Positions 2,665 to 13,762 of a stretch of 13,814 nucleotides of DNA are shown piece after piece (the first letter of the stretch is position 1; every line of letters starts with the position of its first letter). The translations under genes and the position numbers were made by a program. This DNA is from Mycolicibacterium malmesburyense (GTDB lineage: Bacteria > Actinomycetota > Actinomycetes > Mycobacteriales > Mycobacteriaceae), in assembly GCF_001050015.1 (NCBI RefSeq), contig NZ_CVTB01000317.1:1-13814 (forward strand), written 5' to 3'. The notes below the pieces were generated by a model. The model searched no databases, was not told the DNA's origin, and saw nothing but the letters and a program-made list of their open reading frames with translations.

Positions 2665-3669
2665 TCAGCGCGAATCCAACGATTTCGAATCGTCAGCGGC
2701 GTTCTTCACGTCGTGCACCCGCGTCTTGTACAAGCTCGCCACGGTGGTGATGAACAGCGTCACGATGATCACACCCAGCGACAGCAGGGTGGGGATCTCG
2801 GGCACCGGCACGGGCTCGCCGCCGTTGATGAACGGAACCTCGTTCTCGTGCAGGGCGTGCAGCAACAGCTTCACGCCGATGAACCCGAGGATGAACGCCA
2901 GGCCCTGGGACAGGAAGACGAGCCGTTTGAGCAGGTCGCCCAGCAAGAAGTACAGCTGGCGCAACCCCATCAGCGCGAACACGTTCGCGGTGAAGACCAG
3001 GTACGGCTCCTGGGTCAGCCCGTAGATGGCCGGGATCGAGTCGAGCGCGAAGATCAGGTCCGTGGTGCCGAGCGCGACGATGACGAGGAACATCGGCGTC
3101 ATCAGCCGCTTGCCGTTTTCCTTCACCCACAGCTTCAGCCCGTCCCACTTGTCGGTCATGCTCAGGTGGTTGCGGGCGAATCTGACCACGATGTTGTCGC
3201 CGTCGTCTTCGTGATCGGTGTCGCGGGCCAGGTTGATCGCCGTATAGATCAGGAACGCGGCGAAGATGTAGAACACCCAGGAGAACTGGTTGATCGCCAC
3301 GGCGCCGAGCGCGATGAAGATGCCGCGGAAGATCAGGGCCAGGATGATGCCGACCAACAGGGCCTGTTGCTGGTACTTCCTGGGCACGTTGAAGCTGGCC
3401 ATGATGATCAGGAAGACGAACAGGTTGTCCACCGACAGGCTGTATTCGGTCAGCCACCCGGCGAAGAACTCGACGCCGTACTGGCTGCCGTGGAAGAACC
3501 AGGTCCACAACCCGAACGCGATCGCCAGGCTCACGTAGAACGTCAGCGCGATACCGGTTTCCCGCTTCGAGGGTTCGTGCGGCCGGCGGCCGATCACGAT
3601 CACGTCGAACAGCAGAATGGCGATCGTCACGCTCAGCGTGATGATCCATTCGAGATTGGAAACGTTCAC
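2665..3669 (-). CDS. TerC-family integral membrane protein, probable manganese exporter
   Basis: 334 residues from GTG 3669, giving MNVSNLEWIITLSVTIAILL. The frame is open to 3849, but that stretch is the RNA leader described separately. GGAGG (3674-3678) lies 4 bases before the GTG. The protein has about eight or nine membrane segments. TerC hallmarks are present: GWLTEYSLSVDNLFVFL (71-87) with acidic Glu75 and Asp81, and the second copy TTDLIFALDSIPAIYGL (202-218) with Asp204 and Asp210. Membrane acidic residues of this kind are proposed to bind a divalent metal. A cytosolic acidic loop (DTDHEDDGDN, 150-159) and a basic amphipathic segment separate the halves. Family members under manganese riboswitches (ykoY, alx types) protect against or export Mn2+. 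The leader supports this role here rather than tellurite resistance. Confidence 0.93.
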   Translation of the reverse strand: MNVSNLEWIITLSVTIAILLFDVIVIGRRPHEPSKRETGIALTFYVSLAIAFGLWTWFFHGSQYGVEFFAGWLTEYSLSVDNLFVFLIIMASFNVPRKYQQQALLVGIILALIFRGIFIALGAVAINQFSWVFYIFAAFLIYTAINLARDTDHEDDGDNIVVRFARNHLSMTDKWDGLKLWVKENGKRLMTPMFLVIVALGTTDLIFALDSIPAIYGLTQEPYLVFTANVFALMGLRQLYFLLGDLLKRLVFLSQGLAFILGFIGVKLLLHALHENEVPFINGGEPVPVPEIPTLLSLGVIIVTLFITTVASLYKTRVHDVKNAADDSKSLDSR

Positions 3670-3697
3670 TGATCCTCCGGTCGTCAAACGCCGGAGG
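3670..3697 (-). promoter_or_regulatory. Expression platform: hairpin that can hide the terC ribosome binding site
   Basis: On the minus strand CCTCCGG (3697-3691) and CCGGAGG (3680-3674) form a perfect 7-bp hairpin with a 10-base loop. The second arm contains GGAGG, the ribosome binding site, 4 bases before the GTG. The first arm is also the 3' strand of aptamer helix P1. The two helices cannot coexist, so aptamer formation frees the ribosome site. This predicts translation switched on by the ligand. Confidence 0.72.
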
Positions 3698-3800
3698 TCT
3701 CTTCCACCGCCACAAACGATCGTGTCGGCCCGCAGCACCGGTCGTCCGATGACGGCCGACGTGATGACGACACCGCGGCGAAAGGAATACTCCCCTCCGC
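3691..3800 (-). ncRNA. yybP-ykoY-type manganese riboswitch aptamer in the terC leader
   Basis: Read on the minus strand. The closing helix P1 is CGGAGG (3799-3794) with CCTCCG (3697-3692), six perfect pairs. Immediately inside the 5' strand is GGAGTA, giving the GGGGAGTA hallmark of this class. Immediately before the 3' strand is AGAGA. The Lactococcus aptamer as I recall it has GGGGAGUA and AAGACC at the same places. A further perfect 7-bp helix GTCGGCC/GGCCGAC and an outer helix using CCGC/GCGG lie inside, and GTCGTCA before the first of them also occurs in the recalled Lactococcus sequence. Position directly upstream of a TerC-family gene is the classic context. Identification is by eye against a remembered consensus; the second conserved loop is not confirmed. 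Confidence 0.72.
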
Positions 3801-3944
3801 AGGCGATTCTGCCAGGTACTTGCGGATGACCGAAAGCGGACGGGATCAAACCTCCTGCGGAGAACCGGTTGGACCCGGCGACCGGTGTCGCAATCGTGAT
3901 CGCGACGCCGCGTGCGGCTCAGGCGTCACGGGCGCTTCGCTGAG

Positions 3945-3957: not shown

Positions 3958-6900
3958 GTGACTGGGGAGTTGCGACAGGAGATTCCGGCTCAATATCTGT
4001 TGTCCCCATTCGCGCCGGAACCGCGCACGCTCATCGACATCCTCTACGAGACCGCGAGTCGCTATCCGGAGGCGCCGGCCATCGACGACGGAAACGTCCA
4101 GCTCACGTACGCCGAGCTGATCTCCGACATCGAGGACAGCGTCCGGTGGCTGGCCGCGCGGGGCATCGGGCGCGGCGACCGGATCGGGATCCGGATGGCG
4201 TCGGGCAGTTACGCGCTCTATGTCGCGATCCTCGCCGTGTTGGCCACCGGCGCCGCTTATGTACCCGTGGACGCCGACGATCCTGCGGAGCGCGCCGAGC
4301 TCGTGTTCAGCGAAGCCAACGTGGTGGCGATCATCACCGAGGCGGGCCTGTCACGGGGACCCGGATCGTCGCGCGGCTGGCGGGCCGCGGCCCCGCTGGG
4401 CCGAGACGACGCCTGGATCATCTTCACATCCGGCTCCACCGGCACCCCCAAGGGCGTCGCGGTCACCCACCGCAGCGCGGCGGCCTTCGTCGACGCCGAG
4501 GCGCGGTTGTTCCTGCAGGAGAATCCGCTCGGACCCGGCGACCGCGTGCTGGCCGGGTTGTCGGTGGCATTCGACGCGTCCTGCGAAGAGATGTGGCTGG
4601 CCTGGCGCCACGGCGCCTGCCTCGTGCCCGCGCCGCGTTCAATGGTGCGCAGCGGGATGGATCTGGGGCCCTGGCTCGTCGCGCGTGACATCACCGTCGT
4701 GTCGACGGTGCCGACGCTGGCCGCACTGTGGCCCGCCGAGGCGCTCGAGGCGGTCCGGCTGCTGATCTTCGGCGGCGAAGCCTGTCCCCCGGAGCTGTCT
4801 GAGCGGCTCGCGGTCGAGGGCCGGGAGGTGTGGAACACCTACGGGCCGACGGAGGCGACGGTCGTGGCGTGCGCCGCCCGGTTGTCGGGGGGTGACCCGG
4901 TGGCCATCGGGCTGCCGCTGGTCGGCTGGGACCTGGCCGTCGTCGACTGGCACGGCGAGCCGGTGCCGTACGGCGCGGTGGGGCAGCTGATCATCGGCGG
5001 TGTCGGGCTGGCCCGCTACCTCGACCCGGACAAGGACGCCGAGGAGTACGCCGCGATGCCCTCGCTCGGCTGGAAGCGCGCCTACCGCAGCGGCGACTTG
5101 GTGCGGCTGGAGTCCGACGGGCTCTACTTCGTGGGCCGCGTCGACGATCAGGTCAAGCTCGGCGGGCGCCGCATCGAGCTCGGCGAGGTGGACACCGCGC
5201 TGGTCAACCTGCCCGGGGTGAGCGGTGGGGCCGCCGCGGTCCGCCGCACGGCCGGCGGTACGCCGCTGCTGGTCGGCTATGTCGCGAGCGCCGACCCCGC
5301 GTTCGACATCGCCAAGGCTCGCGTGTCGTTGGCCGAGACGTTGCCCGCACCGCTGGTGCCGCGCCTCGTACTGGTCGACGAACTGCCCACCCGCACCTCC
5401 GGCAAGGTCGACCGCGAGGCGCTGCCGTGGCCGGTCGACGTCGGCGACGACGAGGGCGCGCAGCTGACGGGGACGATGCGGTGGCTGGCCGGTCTGTGGC
5501 GCGATGTCCTCGCCGCTCCGGTCGCCGGTCCGGAGGCCGACTTCTTCGCGCTCGGCGGCGGCTCGCTGTCGGCCGCGCAACTGGTCGCCGCCGTGCGCCG
5601 GCGCCATCCGCAGGTGACGGTCGCCGACCTCTACGACCATCCGCGCCTGGGTTCGCTCGCGGGGTTCCTCGACGAGCTCGACCCGCCGCCCCAGGTACAG
5701 CCGCGCGAGGTGAAGCCGACATCGCGACTGACGCAGACCGTGCAGGCGGCGTTGTCGCTACCGCTGGCCGCGCTGTCCGGGTTGCAGTGGGTGGTGTGGC
5801 TGGCGGTGGCCAACAACGTGCTGGCCGGATTCGTCCCGTGGACCGCGCCCCTGAACTGGTGGTGGGTCGGCGTGGGCTTCCTGGTGTTCGTCACGCCGCT
5901 GGGCCGCATGGGCATCGCGGCGTTGTGCGCCCGGCTTCTCCTCGACGGGCTGCGGCCCGGCACCTACCGACGCGGCGGGCCGGTGCACCTGCGGGTGTGG
6001 TTCGCCGAACGGCTCGCCGAGGCCAGCGGTGCCGAAAACCTGGCGGGCGCACCATGGTTGGTGTATTACGCGCGCGCGTTGGGCAACAAGGTCGGCAAGG
6101 GCGTGGACCTGCACTCCGCCCCACCGGTCACCGGAATGCTCAAGCTCGGGCACCGCAGCTCGATAGAACCGGAGGTCGACCTGTGCGGACACTGGGTCGA
6201 CGGTGACCTCTTCCATGTCGGGCCGATCACGGTCGGAAACGACGCGACGGTCGGCGCGCGGACCACGCTGTTGCCCGGCGCCGTGGTCGGGAAGAACGCC
6301 GATGTGGCACCCGGCTCCGGGGTGGTCGGCAAGGTGAAGAACGGCCAGTACTGGAAGGGGTCACCCGCGGTGAAATCGGGTAAGGCCCGCCATCCCTGGC
6401 CGCAGCACCGCCCGCCCCGCGCCCCGCTGTGGGTCGCGGTCTACGGCATCACCTCGATACTCCTCGGCGGGCTTCCGCTGCTGGCGATCGCGGCCGGGCT
6501 GGCCGTTGTCGGATACGGTGTGCGCAATACGGATTCGGTGGTGGACGCGATCCTTCCCGCCGCGCTGTGGACGCCGGCGGCGACCCTGGTGGCTGCGTTC
6601 GCCTACGCCGCGCTGACGGTGGTCGGCGTGCGACTGCTCTCGCTCGGCCTGCGCGAGGGGTACCACCCGGTGCGCAGTCGTACGGGCTGGCAACTCTGGG
6701 CCACCGAGCGCCTGATGGACGCCGCGCGCACGTATCTCTTCCCGATCTACGCGAGCCTGCTCACACCGTGGTGGCTGCGCGCCCTCGGCGCGAAGGTCGG
6801 TCGCGGAACCGAGATTTCGACGGCGCTGTTCACACCCAAGTTCACCGTGGTCGAGGACGGCGCCTTCCTCGCCGACGACACCATGGTGGCGTCCTACGAG

Positions 6901-7857
6901 TTGGGCGGCGGCTGGATTCACGTGGCCAAGGCCACGATCGGTAAGCGGGCGTTCCTGGGCAACTCCGGCATCACCCAGCCGGGTCGCAAGGTTCCCGACG
7001 ACGGGCTGGTGGCGGTGTTGTCGGCGGCCCCGCACAAGGCCAAGGCGGGGTCGTCCTGGTTGGGCAGCCCACCGGTTCGGTTGCGCCGCAAGCCGACCGC
7101 CGCCGACGCGCTGCGCACGTTCCACCCCTCGGCGCGGCTGAAGCTGCTGCGCGGACTGGTCGAGTTGTGTCGGGCGGTACCGCTGATCGTGACGTTCGGC
7201 ATCGGGGTTGCGGTGCTGTTGACCCTGCAGTGGCTGGTCGTGGAGGCCGGCTGGGGGTGGGCCGCGCTGAGCGTCGGCCCGCTGCTGCTGATCGCCGGGG
7301 CGGTCGCCGGAACGGTGGCCGTGATCGCGAAATGGCTTGTGGTCGGTCGCATCGACCCGGGTGAGCATCCGCTCTGGTCGCCGTTCGTCTGGCGGAACGA
7401 GGTCTACGACACCTTCGTCGAGACCGTCGCCGCCCCGTGGTTCGCGCGCGCGGCCAGCGGCACGCCGGTGATGAACCTGTGGCTGCGGGCGCTGGGCGCC
7501 AAGATCGGCCGCGGCGTCTGGTGCGAGACCTACTGGCTGCCCGAGGCCGACCTGGTCACGCTCGAAGAGGGCGTCGCGGTCAACCGTGGCTGCGTGGTGC
7601 AGACGCATCTGTTCCACGACAGGATCATGCGGATGGACCGTGTTGCGCTGGAACGGGGTTCGACGTTGGGCGCACATGGTGTGGTGCTGCCCGCGGCGCG
7701 CATCGGCGCCGGGGCCACCGTGGGCCCGGCCTCACTGGTCATGCGGGGCGACGAGGTGCCCGCGTCGACCCGATGGCAGGGCAACCCGATCGCACCGTGG
7801 CGCACGCGCAAGAAGCGCGGCGCGTCGGCACCTGCGACCGAAGAAACCGCCGCGTGA
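3958..7857 (+). CDS. Pls/PosA-type single-module peptide synthetase: candidate cationic poly(amino acid), probably polylysine, synthetase
   Basis: 1299 residues from GTG 3958; the open frame to 3820 has no family-like sequence. Adenylation domain about 25-490: P-loop-like FTSGSTGTPKG (156-166), YGPTE (295-299), YRSGD (376-380), core Lys483 in TSGK. Carrier domain about 505-572 with phosphopantetheine Ser536 in LGGGSL. There follow three repeats of two membrane helices (about 594-623/632-660, 824-855/864-895, 1071-1095/1100-1128), each pair followed by a left-handed beta-helix domain (about 694-805, 925-1040, 1150-1285) opening with RALGxKxGxG. No classical HHxxxDG condensation domain or thioesterase is present. 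This is the order and nearly the length I recall for Streptomyces epsilon-poly-L-lysine synthetase. Specificity residues read D-A-E-S-I-G-T-V-V-K, close to a lysine code. It is expected in the membrane, joining activated amino acids through side-chain amides. It is the first gene of a tightly packed operon. Confidence 0.88.
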   Translation: MTGELRQEIPAQYLLSPFAPEPRTLIDILYETASRYPEAPAIDDGNVQLTYAELISDIEDSVRWLAARGIGRGDRIGIRMASGSYALYVAILAVLATGAAYVPVDADDPAERAELVFSEANVVAIITEAGLSRGPGSSRGWRAAAPLGRDDAWIIFTSGSTGTPKGVAVTHRSAAAFVDAEARLFLQENPLGPGDRVLAGLSVAFDASCEEMWLAWRHGACLVPAPRSMVRSGMDLGPWLVARDITVVSTVPTLAALWPAEALEAVRLLIFGGEACPPELSERLAVEGREVWNTYGPTEATVVACAARLSGGDPVAIGLPLVGWDLAVVDWHGEPVPYGAVGQLIIGGVGLARYLDPDKDAEEYAAMPSLGWKRAYRSGDLVRLESDGLYFVGRVDDQVKLGGRRIELGEVDTALVNLPGVSGGAAAVRRTAGGTPLLVGYVASADPAFDIAKARVSLAETLPAPLVPRLVLVDELPTRTSGKVDREALPWPVDVGDDEGAQLTGTMRWLAGLWRDVLAAPVAGPEADFFALGGGSLSAAQLVAAVRRRHPQVTVADLYDHPRLGSLAGFLDELDPPPQVQPREVKPTSRLTQTVQAALSLPLAALSGLQWVVWLAVANNVLAGFVPWTAPLNWWWVGVGFLVFVTPLGRMGIAALCARLLLDGLRPGTYRRGGPVHLRVWFAERLAEASGAENLAGAPWLVYYARALGNKVGKGVDLHSAPPVTGMLKLGHRSSIEPEVDLCGHWVDGDLFHVGPITVGNDATVGARTTLLPGAVVGKNADVAPGSGVVGKVKNGQYWKGSPAVKSGKARHPWPQHRPPRAPLWVAVYGITSILLGGLPLLAIAAGLAVVGYGVRNTDSVVDAILPAALWTPAATLVAAFAYAALTVVGVRLLSLGLREGYHPVRSRTGWQLWATERLMDAARTYLFPIYASLLTPWWLRALGAKVGRGTEISTALFTPKFTVVEDGAFLADDTMVASYELGGGWIHVAKATIGKRAFLGNSGITQPGRKVPDDGLVAVLSAAPHKAKAGSSWLGSPPVRLRRKPTAADALRTFHPSARLKLLRGLVELCRAVPLIVTFGIGVAVLLTLQWLVVEAGWGWAALSVGPLLLIAGAVAGTVAVIAKWLVVGRIDPGEHPLWSPFVWRNEVYDTFVETVAAPWFARAASGTPVMNLWLRALGAKIGRGVWCETYWLPEADLVTLEEGVAVNRGCVVQTHLFHDRIMRMDRVALERGSTLGAHGVVLPAARIGAGATVGPASLVMRGDEVPASTRWQGNPIAPWRTRKKRGASAPATEETAA

Positions 7858-9185
7858 CGAGAAGCAAGAAGAAATCGACACCGGTCATCGACCCCTACCT
7901 GCCCTCCAGCGGCAACTTCGGTTATCGCGTCTCCCGCTACGAACTCGACCTCGAGTACAAGGTGGCCATCAACCGGCTCGCGGGCACGGCGACGATCACG
8001 GCGGTGACACTGGCCACGTTGCGCACCTTCACCCTCGACCTCGCCGACACCATGTCGGTGACAAAGCTGACCGTCAACGGCGTTCGGCCACAACAGTTCC
8101 GAACATCGGGGGGCAAGCTGCACGTCACACTGCGCGAGCCGCTGCCCACCGGTGCGGCGATGACCATCGTCGTGCGGTACGGAGGGTCGCCCCGGCCTCT
8201 CCGTTCGTTATGGGGCGACGTGGGTTTCGAGGAATTGACCGACGGCGCCCTGGTGGCCGGCCAGCCGAACGGTGCGCAGACCTGGTTTCCCTGTGACGAC
8301 CACCCGAGCGCCAAGGCGAGCTTTCGCATCCGGATCGCGGCCGAGAGCCCGTACCGCGTGGTCGCCAACGGCGAGTTGGTGTCCCGGCGAGCGCGGGCGG
8401 GCATGACGGCCTGGACGTACGAGTTGCCCGAGCCGACCTCGACCTACCTGTTCACCCTGCAGATCGGGTTGTACGAGCGCCTTCGACTGGCCAAGAACGG
8501 GGTTCCGATTCACGCGGTGCTTCCAACCCGGTTGCGCGAGAACTTCGAACACGACTTCTCCCATCAACCCCAGATGATGCAGCTGTTCGTCAAGCTGTTC
8601 GGTGACTATCCCCTGAGTGAGGGATACACGGTCGTGGTGACCGACGACGACCTCGAGATTCCGCTGGAGGCACAGGGGATCTCGATCTTCGGAGCCAACC
8701 ACTGCGACGGTGAGCGCGGCGCCGAGCGTCTGATCGCGCACGAACTCGCACACCAGTGGTTCGGCAATGCGGTGACCGCCAGGCGGTGGCGGCACATCTG
8801 GCTGCACGAGGGATTCGCGTGCTACGCCGAGTGGTTGTGGTCGGAGAATTCCGGCGGCCGCAGTGCCGAAGAGTGGGCGCGGCATTACCACCGGCGCCTC
8901 GCGGAGTCGCCGCAGAACCTCGTGCTCGCCGATCCCGGGCCGCGCGACATGTTCGACGACCGCGTCTACAAGCGCGGAGCCCTGACGTTGCACATGTTGC
9001 GGCGCCGGCTCGGGGACGACGGCTTTTTCGCGCTGCTGCGGGACTGGACCGGCCGCTACCGCCACAGCACCGTGGTGACCGACGATTTCACCGGGCTGGC
9101 ATCGCATTACGCCACCGAGTCGTTGCGCCCGCTGTGGGACGGCTGGCTGTATTCCAGCGAACTACCACAACTGGATCCGCCGTGA
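7854..9185 (+). CDS. M1-family zinc metallopeptidase, candidate polymer-degrading aminopeptidase
   Basis: 443 residues. GTG 7854 overlaps the synthetase stop (GTGA), so the two are probably translationally coupled. Zinc site: HELAH at 296-300 and Glu319 exactly 18 residues after the second His, in the gluzincin pattern HEXXH-18-E. Tyr372 in VYKRGALTLH is the likely transition-state Tyr. An N-terminal beta-rich domain (about 25-205) precedes the catalytic domain. The long helical C-terminal domain of full-size aminopeptidases is missing. The substrate-binding motif usually written GAMEN or GGMEN reads PLEAQGISIFG (270-280), keeping the Glu but not the rest. There is no signal peptide or membrane segment, and the N-terminus is Lys-rich (TRSKKKS). 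In polylysine producers I recall an M1-type polymer-degrading enzyme (Pld) associated with Pls. The shared operon suggests this one trims or recycles the product, or protects the cell; general peptide turnover is the alternative. Confidence 0.9.
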   Translation: MTRSKKKSTPVIDPYLPSSGNFGYRVSRYELDLEYKVAINRLAGTATITAVTLATLRTFTLDLADTMSVTKLTVNGVRPQQFRTSGGKLHVTLREPLPTGAAMTIVVRYGGSPRPLRSLWGDVGFEELTDGALVAGQPNGAQTWFPCDDHPSAKASFRIRIAAESPYRVVANGELVSRRARAGMTAWTYELPEPTSTYLFTLQIGLYERLRLAKNGVPIHAVLPTRLRENFEHDFSHQPQMMQLFVKLFGDYPLSEGYTVVVTDDDLEIPLEAQGISIFGANHCDGERGAERLIAHELAHQWFGNAVTARRWRHIWLHEGFACYAEWLWSENSGGRSAEEWARHYHRRLAESPQNLVLADPGPRDMFDDRVYKRGALTLHMLRRRLGDDGFFALLRDWTGRYRHSTVVTDDFTGLASHYATESLRPLWDGWLYSSELPQLDPP

Positions 9186-10459
9186 CCGACACGGGCGCGC
9201 CCTTCGATCCGCTCACCGCGAGCGGCGCATCGACGACCGGTCCTGCCGCGCGCGGCAGCGTCGTCCGCGTCGGCGCGGCCACCGCCGTCATCGCGGTCTG
9301 CGGTTACGCCGTGCTCTATCTGGCCGCCCGTGACCTCGAGCCCGCCGGGTTCTCACTGTTCGCGGTGTTCTGGGGTGCGTTCGGTCTGGTCTCGGGGGCG
9401 ACGGGCGGCCTGTTGCAGGAGGCCACCAGGGAGGCCCGGTCCGCCGCGCACGTGGACGCGCGACGAGGTCCCCATACTCGCCCGATGTGGGTGGCCGCCG
9501 GCGTGGGTGCGGTAGCGGCCGCGGTGATCGCGCTCAGCTCGCCGCTGTGGTCCGGGCACGTGTTCGTCGAGTCGCGGTGGCTCTCGGTAACGCTGCTCGC
9601 GATCGGCTTGGCGCTGTTCTGTTTGCACTCAACGCTTTTGGGCATGCTGGCGGGCCAGGACAGGTGGACGGCCTACGGATCGCTGATGGTGACCGACGCG
9701 AGCCTTCGGTTGCTGGTCGCCGTGGCGACTTTTCTCGTCGGCTGGGGGTTGGCCGGTTACCTGTGGGCCACGGTGGCCGGCGCGGTCGCGTGGCTGATCA
9801 TGCTGCTCGTCTCCCCGGCCTCCCGGCGCGCCGCGAGCCTGCTGACGCCGGTCGGCACCGTGTCCTTCCTGCGCGGCGCATCCCACTCCATCACCGCGGC
9901 GAGTGCCAGCGCGATCCTGGTCATGGGGTTCCCGGTGCTGCTGCAGGCCACCTCGGGCGACCTCGGCGCGGCCGGCGGCATCGTGATCCTGGCCGTCACG
10001 CTGACGCGGGCGCCGCTGCTCGTTCCGCTGACCGCGATGCAGGGCAACCTCGTGGCTCACTTCGTGGACCAACGAACGCATCGGGTGCGGGCGCTGGTGA
10101 CCCCGGCCGCCATCGTGATCGGTGTGGGCCTGGCCGGTGTGCTGGTCGCCTGGGCCGCCGGACCGTGGCTGCTGCGCAGCGCGTTCGGCGCCGAATACCG
10201 CGCGGACGGCGCGCTGTTGGCGTGGTTGACGGGCGGGGCGATCGCGGTGTCGCTGCTCACGCTCACCGGGGCGGCGGCGGTGGCGGCCGCACTGCACCGC
10301 GCGTACTCGGTGGGCTGGGTGTCGGCGACCGTCGCGTCGACATTGTTGCTGCTGCTACCGCTCGATCTCGAGACCCGCACGGTCGTCGCGCTGTTGTGCG
10401 GTCCGGTGGTCGGCATCGCCGTGCACCTGTTCGCGCTCTCGCGTGGGCGCGCGTCGTGA
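9182..10459 (+). CDS. Polytopic membrane protein, MOP-type flippase/polysaccharide exporter-like
   Basis: 425 residues from GTG 9182, which overlaps the peptidase stop by 4 bases (GTGA). After a Thr/Ser/Ala-rich N-terminus of about 28 residues, some eleven or twelve hydrophobic segments fill the protein, with short Arg-rich loops such as EATREARSA and PASRRAA. The even spacing of helices and the LGMLAGQDRW and GAEYRADGALLAW stretches fit the multidrug/oligosaccharidyl-lipid/polysaccharide (MOP) superfamily, which holds Wzx and MurJ flippases. I recall a similar integral membrane protein (Rv3630-type, about 430 residues) near ppa and galE1 in M. tuberculosis, so the gene may be ancestral at this locus. 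The role could be flipping a lipid-linked sugar, or export of the product of the upstream genes. Family placement is moderate, substrate unknown. No transporter ATPase is present. Confidence 0.75.
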   Translation: MTDTGAPFDPLTASGASTTGPAARGSVVRVGAATAVIAVCGYAVLYLAARDLEPAGFSLFAVFWGAFGLVSGATGGLLQEATREARSAAHVDARRGPHTRPMWVAAGVGAVAAAVIALSSPLWSGHVFVESRWLSVTLLAIGLALFCLHSTLLGMLAGQDRWTAYGSLMVTDASLRLLVAVATFLVGWGLAGYLWATVAGAVAWLIMLLVSPASRRAASLLTPVGTVSFLRGASHSITAASASAILVMGFPVLLQATSGDLGAAGGIVILAVTLTRAPLLVPLTAMQGNLVAHFVDQRTHRVRALVTPAAIVIGVGLAGVLVAWAAGPWLLRSAFGAEYRADGALLAWLTGGAIAVSLLTLTGAAAVAAALHRAYSVGWVSATVASTLLLLLPLDLETRTVVALLCGPVVGIAVHLFALSRGRAS

Positions 10460-10489
10460 AGCCGGTTCGGAACCGAGGCCGCCGATCCG

Positions 10490-10495
10490 TATGCT
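10490..10495 (+). promoter_or_regulatory. Possible internal promoter (-10) for galE
   Basis: TATGCT fits TANNNT and lies in the 64-base gap between the flippase stop and the galE ATG, with about 28 bases to the start. Upstream is a small inverted repeat CGGTT-CGG-AACCG (10463-10475), which overlaps a poor -35 (TTCGGA, 18-base spacing). It could allow galE to be expressed apart from the synthetase operon. Confidence 0.3.
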
Positions 10496-10523
10496 GGCCC
10501 CGTTCTACGGTGAGGAAGATCGA

Positions 10524-11501
10524 ATGACTTGGCTGGTGACCGGCGGCGCGGGATACATCGGTTCCCATGTGGTGCGCGCCTTGTCGGGTGCCGACATGCC
10601 CGTGGTGGTGATCGACGACCTGTCGACCGGACTCGAGCGATTCGTCCCTGCGACGGTCCCGCTGGTACGCGGCACCCTGCTCGACGGCGAGCTGGTCACC
10701 CGCACGCTCGACGAGCACCGCGTCGACGGCGTGATCCACATCGCGGGTTTCAAGTACGCCGGTGTCTCGGTGCAGCGGCCGCTGCACACCTATGAGCAGA
10801 ACGTCTCGGCGATGGTCACGCTGCTCAAGGCGATGGATGCCGTCGGCACGGACAAGATCGTGTTCTCCTCCAGCGCCGCCACCTATGGCACCCCGGATGT
10901 CGACACCGTCACCGAGCAGACTCCGACGGCGCCCGAATCGCCGTACGGGGTCAGCAAGTTGGTGGGCGAGTGGATGATTCGCGACGCCGCACGCGCGTCC
11001 GGGTTGGGGCACACCAGCCTGCGGTACTTCAACGTCGTGGGATCGGGGTCGGCGGACCTGTTCGACGTCAGCCCCCACAACCTCTTTCCGCTGGTGTTCG
11101 ACATGCTGTGCCGCGACGAGACCCCGAGGATCAACGGCGCCGACTATCCCACGCCGGACGGGACGTGTGTGCGCGACTACGTCCACGTCTCGGACCTCGC
11201 GCTGGCCCACGTCGCCGCCGCGCGTCGACTGGTGAGCGGCGAACCGATCGAGCCCGTCTACAACCTCGGCAGCGGCAGCGGAACCTCCGTGCGCGAGATC
11301 ATGACGACGATCCGCGACGTCACCGGTTTCGATTTCGAGCCCGTCATCGGTCCGCACCGCCCCGGCGACCCCGCCCGCATCGTCGCCTCGGGCGACCTGG
11401 CCGCACGCGACCTCGACTGGCGCATGCGGCATTCGTTGGAGGAGATGGTGCGGTCGGCATGGATCGCTCGCCGGCAAGCAGGGGATGCGTATCCGCGGTA
11501 A
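10524..11501 (+). CDS. galE: UDP-glucose 4-epimerase (extended short-chain dehydrogenase family)
   Basis: 325 residues from ATG 10524. GAGGA about 7 bases before it sets the start; the frame is open upstream to 10443 but overlaps the flippase gene. The NAD-binding loop GGAGYIGS is at 7-14, the active site is Ser117 with Tyr141-x-x-x-Lys145 (YGVSK), and YFNVVG is at 168-173. DYPTPDGTCVRDYVHVSDLA (207-226) is the GalE-type sugar-nucleotide segment. The enzyme interconverts UDP-glucose and UDP-galactose in the cytosol, feeding galactan and other envelope glycans in mycobacteria. The segment HIAGFKYAGVS (72-82) matches the family. It lies 64 bases after the flippase gene and overlaps the next gene by 17 bases. 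It could also act on N-acetylated UDP sugars; sequence alone does not exclude this. Confidence 0.9.
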   Translation: MTWLVTGGAGYIGSHVVRALSGADMPVVVIDDLSTGLERFVPATVPLVRGTLLDGELVTRTLDEHRVDGVIHIAGFKYAGVSVQRPLHTYEQNVSAMVTLLKAMDAVGTDKIVFSSSAATYGTPDVDTVTEQTPTAPESPYGVSKLVGEWMIRDAARASGLGHTSLRYFNVVGSGSADLFDVSPHNLFPLVFDMLCRDETPRINGADYPTPDGTCVRDYVHVSDLALAHVAAARRLVSGEPIEPVYNLGSGSGTSVREIMTTIRDVTGFDFEPVIGPHRPGDPARIVASGDLAARDLDWRMRHSLEEMVRSAWIARRQAGDAYPR

Positions 11502-13275
11502 GTTCGCGCCGGGCAACTGGGTCGCTCGCACCGCCGTCGTCCTGATCGCCGTGCAGTTGGCGATCCGGGCGGTGCTGGCGTTCGGCGGCTACTTCTATTG
11601 GGACGACCTGATCCTGATCGGCCGCGCGGGCACGCAACCGCTCCTCTCACCGGAGTACCTGTTCGACGACCACGACGGCCACGTCATGCCCGCGGCGTTC
11701 CTCGTGGCGGGCGCCATCACGCTTCTCGCGCCGCTGAACTGGGTCGGCCCGGCGATCAGCCTGGTCGTTCTGCAGGTGTTGGTGTCGCTGGCATTGCTGC
11801 GCACGCTGCACGTCATCCTCGGATGGCGGCCAGTGCTGTTGCTGCCGTTGACATTCGCGTTGTTCACGCCGTTGGCGGTACCCGGATTCGCGTGGTGGGC
11901 GGCGGCCCTGAACTCGTTGCCGATGCTGGCGGCGATGGCGTGGGTCTGCGGCGACGCGATCCTTCTCGTCCGCACCGGCGACCGGCGCCACGCGGTGCGG
12001 GCGTTGGCGGTCTACCTCGGAGGGCTGCTGTTCTTCGAGAAGGCGGCGGTGATTCCTTTCGTCGCGTTCGCGGTGACGGCGCTGCTGGCCCACGTGACCG
12101 AGACGGGGTCGGTGAAAGCGGTGTGGCGCCGGGGTATTCGCCTGTGGGTTCCATCGCTGGTGATCACCGCGGCTTGGGTCGGCGTGTACCTGATGGTGGT
12201 CGATCAGAAGCGGTGGACCCTCGATCTGCCGATGACGTGGGACCTGCTCGCGAGATCGGTGACCCACGGGATCGTGCCGGGATTGGTCGGCGGTCCGTGG
12301 GATTGGCAGCGTTGGGCGCCTGCGTCGCCGTGGGGCACCCCGCCGGTGACGGTGATGGTGCTGGGTTGGGTGGTCCTGGCCGCGGTGGTGGCGCTCACGA
12401 TGCTGCGCAAGCGGCGGTTGACCGCGGTGTGGCTGGTGGCGGCCGGGTACGCGGTGGGCTGTCAGATCCCGATCTACCTCATGCGCTCGTCGCAGTTCAC
12501 CGCGCTGGAACTGGCGCAGGCCCTGCGTTATCTGCCCGATCTGGTCATCGTGCTGGCGCTGCTGGCCGCGGTGGGGTTGTGCGCGCCGAACCGGGAGGGG
12601 ACGCGATGGCTGGACGCTTCGCGACCCCGCACAGCGCTGATCTGTGCGTTCACCGCGGCATTCGTCGCCAGCAGTCTGTACTCGACGGCGTCCTTCCTGA
12701 CGGTGTGGCGAGACGACCCGGCGCGGACGTATCTACGAAATGCGTTGCCGGGCTTGGCCCATGCCGCACGGATGTCGAATGCGCCGATGCTCGACCAGGA
12801 GGTCGACCCGATGGTGCTGCAGCGGGTGGTCGGGCCGGAGAACCGGGCCAGCCACATGTTCGCCTTGGTGCGCGATCGTCCCGAATTCGCTTCGGCCACC
12901 GACGAATTACGGATGCTCGATCACGTGGGGCGGGTCGTCGACGCCAAGGTGACCTGGGTTCGCAGCATCGCGCCGGGACCACATCCGGACTGTGGATACC
13001 TCGTGCAGCCGGAGGTTCCCGTCCGCATGCCGCTGGACGGGCCGCTGCTACCTGCGGACTGGACGGCCGAGATCAACTACCTGGCCAACAGCGACGGTTC
13101 GATGACGATGTCGCTGTCGGAGGGCATCGAGGTCAGGGTGCCGGTGCGACCGGGACTGAACCGGGTGTTCGTCCGGTTGCCGGGTGCGGGCGACGCAATC
13201 GACGTCCGTGCGAACACGGCCGCGCTGTCGGTGTGCATCGCATCGGGACCCGTCGGCTTCGTTGCGCCGAGGTAG
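11485..13275 (+). CDS. Large polytopic membrane protein with extracytoplasmic C-terminal domain, GT-C glycosyltransferase-like
   Basis: 596 residues from ATG 11485, which overlaps the end of galE by 17 bases; an AGGGG patch directly before the ATG is the only ribosome site. About ten or eleven membrane helices cover residues 13-400. The first helix is followed by YFYWDDLILIGRA (37-49) with Asp40-Asp41, then FDDHDGHVMPA (60-70). Paired acidic residues in the first outside loop are a GT-C signature (lipid-phosphosugar-using transferases). After the last helix (about 381-400), about 190 residues form a soluble, beta-rich domain with few Cys, probably outside. I recall a membrane protein of nearly this length next to galE1 in M. 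tuberculosis (Rv3635, 591 residues, function unknown), likely its orthologue. It may add sugars to an envelope polymer. The membrane topology is firm; the enzyme class is inferred. Confidence 0.8.
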   Translation: MRIRGKFAPGNWVARTAVVLIAVQLAIRAVLAFGGYFYWDDLILIGRAGTQPLLSPEYLFDDHDGHVMPAAFLVAGAITLLAPLNWVGPAISLVVLQVLVSLALLRTLHVILGWRPVLLLPLTFALFTPLAVPGFAWWAAALNSLPMLAAMAWVCGDAILLVRTGDRRHAVRALAVYLGGLLFFEKAAVIPFVAFAVTALLAHVTETGSVKAVWRRGIRLWVPSLVITAAWVGVYLMVVDQKRWTLDLPMTWDLLARSVTHGIVPGLVGGPWDWQRWAPASPWGTPPVTVMVLGWVVLAAVVALTMLRKRRLTAVWLVAAGYAVGCQIPIYLMRSSQFTALELAQALRYLPDLVIVLALLAAVGLCAPNREGTRWLDASRPRTALICAFTAAFVASSLYSTASFLTVWRDDPARTYLRNALPGLAHAARMSNAPMLDQEVDPMVLQRVVGPENRASHMFALVRDRPEFASATDELRMLDHVGRVVDAKVTWVRSIAPGPHPDCGYLVQPEVPVRMPLDGPLLPADWTAEINYLANSDGSMTMSLSEGIEVRVPVRPGLNRVFVRLPGAGDAIDVRANTAALSVCIASGPVGFVAPR

Positions 13276-13686: not shown

Positions 13687-13762
13687 TGGAGCCACCTAGG
13701 AGAATCGAACTCCTGACCTGCTCATTACGAGTGAGCCGCTCTGCCGACTGAGCTAAGGTGGC
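13687..13762 (-). tRNA. tRNA-Thr, anticodon CGT
   Basis: Read on the minus strand. The acceptor arm GCCACCT/AGGTGGC pairs over 7 bp, the D arm is GCTC...GAGC, the anticodon stem is GCTCA/TGAGC with loop CTCGTAA (anticodon CGT, reading ACG threonine codons), and the T arm is AGGAG-TTCGATT-CTCCT. The discriminator is T and the 3' CCA is encoded (13687-13689). All arms are intact. The gene faces the CMD gene with 14 bases between. In the 52 bases upstream (13763-13814) I see no clear promoter and no gene. Confidence 0.97.

Follow-up and report, generated by a model that had tools for sequence, protein, structure and literature searches.

Does the mycobacterial locus studied here encode an enzyme that links lysines into a cationic isopeptide polymer, and would such an enzyme be unusual in its host? 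The window, the whole 13,814-nucleotide stretch of DNA that was analysed, carries on its plus strand a pls-like gene at 3958..7857 (GTG start, 1299 aa) that encodes a Pls/PosA family non-ribosomal peptide synthetase. The sequence-only reading had assigned to these coordinates an adenylation (A) domain, a carrier domain and three units of a helix pair plus a beta-helix, and Pfam, the NCBIfam model TIGR02353 and an AlphaFold2 model all agree with it. Specifically, the A domain (4006..5436, residues 17-493) scores 204.6 bits with the Pfam AMP-binding model, and the carrier, or thiolation (T), domain (5479..5670, residues 508-571), with its GGGSLS attachment site at Ser536, scores 48.4 bits with PP-binding. 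Further along the same strand, a first membrane helix pair (5755..5940, residues 600-661; first helix from the model only) precedes the C1 unit, a predicted beta-helix (6076..6393, residues about 707-812); a second predicted pair (6424..6642, residues 823-895) precedes the C2 unit, which is beta-helix-like mainly on the basis of the model (6790..7098, residues about 945-1047); and a third predicted pair (7174..7344, residues 1073-1129) precedes the C3 unit, again a predicted beta-helix (7495..7800, residues about 1180-1281).

The terminal-domain profile of the Pls/PosA family, against which a search had been proposed, matches the synthetase with 746 bits (cut-off 423) over residues 595-1278 and profile positions 2-695 of 695, which places the enzyme with Pls and PosA. 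A Pfam hexapeptide repeat model scores 27.4 bits (cut-off 27) and a second hexapeptide model 14.2, below its cut-off. In the AlphaFold2 model, the other suggested check, three soluble tandem units with three helix pairs between them reproduce the Pls/PosA layout; the model predicts six membrane helices, and hydrophobicity alone predicts five. As had also been noted, no condensation or thioesterase domain is matched by Pfam in the synthetase at E up to 1, and the single A and single T domains stand without the condensation domain of a canonical non-ribosomal peptide synthetase. The host of the window is close to Mycobacterium sp. GA-1199 and 1164985.4, with 92-93% protein identity in the best segment.

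Which amino acid would such an enzyme load? The top solved match to the whole synthetase is 7wew, the A domain of Streptomyces albulus Pls (645 bits), and 8g95, the ornithine-loading PosA A domain and a shorter chain, scores 184 bits. Over 480 columns the A domain is 66% identical to 7wew. As read off the alignment, with equivalence to the classical pocket set from known motifs, the pocket code DAESIGTVVK (synthetase residues 206, 207, 210, 249, 270, 272, 294, 302, 303 and 483) agrees with 7wew at 10/10 positions. The same code is present in all 77 orthologues that have all ten positions, the other 3/80 being truncated loci, and in 15/15 of loci L086-L100; the main text of PMC12283262 does not contain it. 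The available excerpt of PMC10522769 associates Ala at position 2 and Glu at position 3 with lysine, Met with ornithine and Phe with diaminopropionate, and gives DMEHNGTVSK as the code of PosA and DGESISVVNK as that of a beta-lysine enzyme. Because the pocket code is shared with 7wew and fits the rules given in that excerpt, lysine is strongly predicted as the substrate of the A domain. Substrates other than lysine were rejected on the code DAESIGTVVK. In the portions available of PMC10522769, PMC4668381 and PMC8117764, the same architecture also serves ornithine, diaminobutyrate, diaminopropionate or beta-lysine, but a Pls/PosA-type enzyme for one of these other diamino acids is very improbable here, the code being that of lysine-loading Pls and unlike both codes excerpted from PMC10522769. 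Since a Pls architecture is combined with a pocket identical to that of S. albulus Pls, epsilon-polylysine is the likely product of the synthetase.

Immediately downstream lies a gene absent from the earlier reading, encoding an M1-family zinc peptidase (7854..9185, plus strand, GTG start, 443 aa), whose start and the stop of pls share the 4 bases GTGA. Pfam matches both M1 domains, and the zinc-binding motif HELAH-x18-E is located at 8739..8810 on the same strand (peptidase residues 296-319). At 8664-8678 the peptidase seemingly has LEAQG in place of the usual exopeptidase motif GxMEN, with the glutamate apparently kept; this variant may matter for whether the enzyme is exo- or endo-acting on the polymer. 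The closest solved relative by sequence is PDB 6a8z, a 474-residue chain of an M1 zinc metalloprotease from Deinococcus (E 4.3e-41), which is not known as a polylysine hydrolase.

Among loci L001-L080, an M1 gene follows pls within 3 kb in 79/79 loci that reach past the pls stop (L014 ends at that stop and was outside those scored). By estimate, the two genes overlap or lie no more than 36 bases apart in 72/79 loci, and they are 68-2136 bases apart in L041, L046, L047, L048, L053, L072 and L078. These M1 genes are full length in 78/79 loci, any stop falling at position 441 of 443 or later, and the one in L072 is cut by the contig end; within the 4.4 kb stretches of L086-L100, no M1 match was found. 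The M1 gene sits where the PldII gene lies in known epsilon-polylysine loci. Streptomyces PldII degrades epsilon-polylysine and is called a peptidase, its family not being named; Pld and PldII are described as exo- and endo-acting in the available part of PMC8506220, according to which their inactivation leaves production and polymer length unchanged. Judged from its position, its co-occurrence with pls and the analogy with PldII, the M1 peptidase probably hydrolyses the polymer.

How widely, then, do the two genes occur, and do they occur together? In a family sample (the family to which G001 belongs, G001 being the genome with locus L001), TIGR02353 scores above cut-off in 362/401 genomes, and in a sample of the genus of G001 it does so in 293/396; the two samples overlap, and because genome completeness is not given, some absences of the synthetase may be assembly gaps. 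A class sample, assessed by a different measure (A-domain match to 7wew at E up to 1e-100), gives 64/296 genomes, and a control genome of Corynebacterium glutamicum also scores above the TIGR02353 cut-off. Additionally, among the 120 relatives listed, more than 20, all of them with Mycobacterium or Mycolicibacterium labels, already bear the name Pls/PosA family synthetase. The likening to S. albulus Pls made by the sequence-only reading holds for the architecture and the lysine pocket, but its surprise at finding such an enzyme in a mycobacterium does not survive the genus count and these existing names.

The M1 protein was found in 80/80 genus genomes with a synthetase (80 of 295 with a match, taken in handle order, with G712 passed over for its weaker, split synthetase match), at best E values of 1.0e-276 to 1.6e-159. 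Many genome rows contain a single stop inside the M1 match, which where inspected is the gene end at position 441; the same stop ends the M1 gene in 10/79 loci, and also in L101. For the 101 genus genomes without a synthetase match, 80 were searched for the M1 protein, and an intact orthologue was found in one, G776, a 1.9 Mb assembly in which the terminal part of a synthetase gene (residues 1219-1287) abuts the end of its contig; since this partial synthetase runs off the contig, G776 probably has both genes. In G767 (L102, 3.3 Mb), decayed fragments of pls and M1 with in-frame stops adjoin one another, and the two genes decay together. G746 retains M1 fragments only, and in G736 there is a short additional M1-like stretch. 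The matches in the other searched genomes without a synthetase are to distant M1 enzymes, about 26-34% identical, and 2/80 have no M1 match at E up to 1e-6. Across these 80 genomes the best identity to the presumed pyrophosphatase chain of M. tuberculosis is 92%, so M. tuberculosis is probably not among them. Separately, G716, G745, G749 and G791 have, in addition to the pls-linked M1 peptidase, another one that is similar in length to that of the window and 28-30% identical to it. Taken together, the joint retention and loss of the two genes across the sampled genus genomes provides strong evidence that the synthetase and the M1 peptidase act together.

In a FastTree phylogeny of sequences longer than 1200 residues, rooted on L076, the 38 mycobacterial tips, including the window, form one group with a support of 0.997; these tips were assigned by hand from record titles and take in some actinobacterial assemblies as well as a single contig with the label Bifidobacterium breve. 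The single group fits vertical descent. The notion that pls is an oddity, either rare or acquired by recent transfer, was discarded, ruled out by its presence in 293 of the 396 genus genomes together with this single mycobacterial group. The metagenome contig labelled Bifidobacterium breve (L031) carries a pls-M1 locus with 76% identity to the window; this identity is well within the mycobacterial range, and the contig is probably misbinned or mislabelled. Against seven mycobacterial orthologues, pairwise comparison by the simple Nei-Gojobori method gives a pls dN/dS of 0.09-0.19 at synonymous distances of 0.41-0.77. With the window copy intact and dN/dS in this range, it is extremely improbable that pls is a non-functional remnant, even though one in four of the genus genomes sampled scores without the gene and one, G767, holds decayed fragments of both partners.

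The surroundings of the pair are more varied. Upstream, a TerC/Alx family membrane protein is encoded on the minus strand (2665-3849; 376 bits, cut-off 246), and the gap between TerC and pls, roughly 100-300 bases depending on start codon choice, is a candidate divergent promoter region. Between a uraD-like gene (841-1362) and TerC, the stretch 1375-2629 has open reading frames on both strands; no Pfam family matches the minus-strand frames tested there, and the minus-strand frame 1375-2361 finds a match in only 4/80 loci. Downstream, 8756-13275 contains a membrane-type protein whose real start lies near 9190, then a GalE-type epimerase and after it another membrane-type protein, of 596 residues, neither of the two membrane-type proteins having a Pfam match; a tRNA-Thr is located at 13687-13762. 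The region downstream of pls-M1 may resemble the Rv3630-Rv3635 region of M. tuberculosis. Within 8 kb of pls, TerC occurs in 23/41 and ppa in 19/41 mycobacterial loci, some of which are short. In the other 39 loci, among the seven window genes tested, ppa occurs in 10/39 and the remainder, M1 apart, in 0-3.

We consider it highly probable that the synthetase is an orthologue of Streptomyces epsilon-poly-L-lysine synthetase with a lysine-loading A domain and a polymer-cutting M1 partner, which is the best joint explanation of the locus. Under this explanation, the A domain would activate L-lysine, as its pocket suggests, and load the carrier domain; the three membrane-anchored units C1-C3 would, by homology, link lysines repeatedly via side-chain amides without a thioesterase; and the M1 peptidase, whose start codon overlaps the pls stop, probably hydrolyses the polymer for cell protection or lysine recycling. 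With S. albulus Pls the window enzyme shares the A-T-(TM/C)x3 order, 66% A-domain identity, the ten-residue pocket code and an adjoining peptidase gene; it differs in belonging to another host clade and in having a predicted product, the sequences being compared over the A domain only. Corynebacterium variabile is a relative of the mycobacteria within the same order. Its Pls resembles the window enzyme, by description, in architecture and in the peptidase gene alongside (PMC8117764), and its product is established by heterologous expression, whereas that of the window enzyme is predicted. PosA of Acinetobacter baumannii (delta-poly-L-ornithine synthetase, with the A domain 8g95) belongs to the same family and has the same architecture but, in the excerpt of PMC10522769, has Met at pocket position 2 and a single-gene operon.

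What the enzyme releases bears on a different reading, in which a lysine-using Pls-type enzyme makes short oligo-lysines or passes lysine to an envelope acceptor, and the peptidase shortens an oligomer attached to the wall or to lipid. In this subgroup, short oligomers could be released, or an acceptor loaded, by the membrane units. Neither C. variabile itself nor C. glutamicum expressing its pls yields detectable epsilon-polylysine (PMC8117764), and the near-core spread in the bacterial family would be odd for an antibiotic. However, when produced in Streptomyces coelicolor, the C. variabile Pls yields free epsilon-polylysine 26-35 residues long (PMC8117764), and M1 alone, out of the seven window genes tested, stands beside pls in all non-mycobacterial loci (39/39), which makes the oligomer or acceptor product unlikely. 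Mycolate-type bacteria may differ in expression or in the form of the product.

Enzymes of this kind have been published before, including their operon with a peptidase and their occurrence in Corynebacterium and Rhodococcus. Epsilon-polylysine clusters in Prescottella and Rhodococcus are reported by similarity in the available parts of PMC10972888 and PMC10819586, and the part available of PMC11865118 names Mycobacteriaceae and an epsilon-polylysine network without linking the two. In the literature searched, a non-exhaustive set with some papers represented by excerpts, no paper on epsilon-polylysine from mycobacteria was found; relative to that literature, the wide spread of pls and its strict pairing with the peptidase in mycobacteria are new. 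We tentatively propose that epsilon-polylysine synthesis and hydrolysis might be near-core housekeeping in mycolate-type actinobacteria, with an obligate gene pair that is lost together and a polycation that is retained at the cell envelope or produced under specific stress instead of being secreted as an antibiotic. The enzyme kind being known, it is the near-core, paired distribution in mycobacteria that deserves attention, and the strict pairing with the peptidase makes the polymer question easy to test. If the expected product is made, most sampled mycobacteria hold a gene for a cationic isopeptide polymer, and such a polymer could alter the charge of the surface, the way drugs are taken up, and encounters with fungi, amoebae or host cells.
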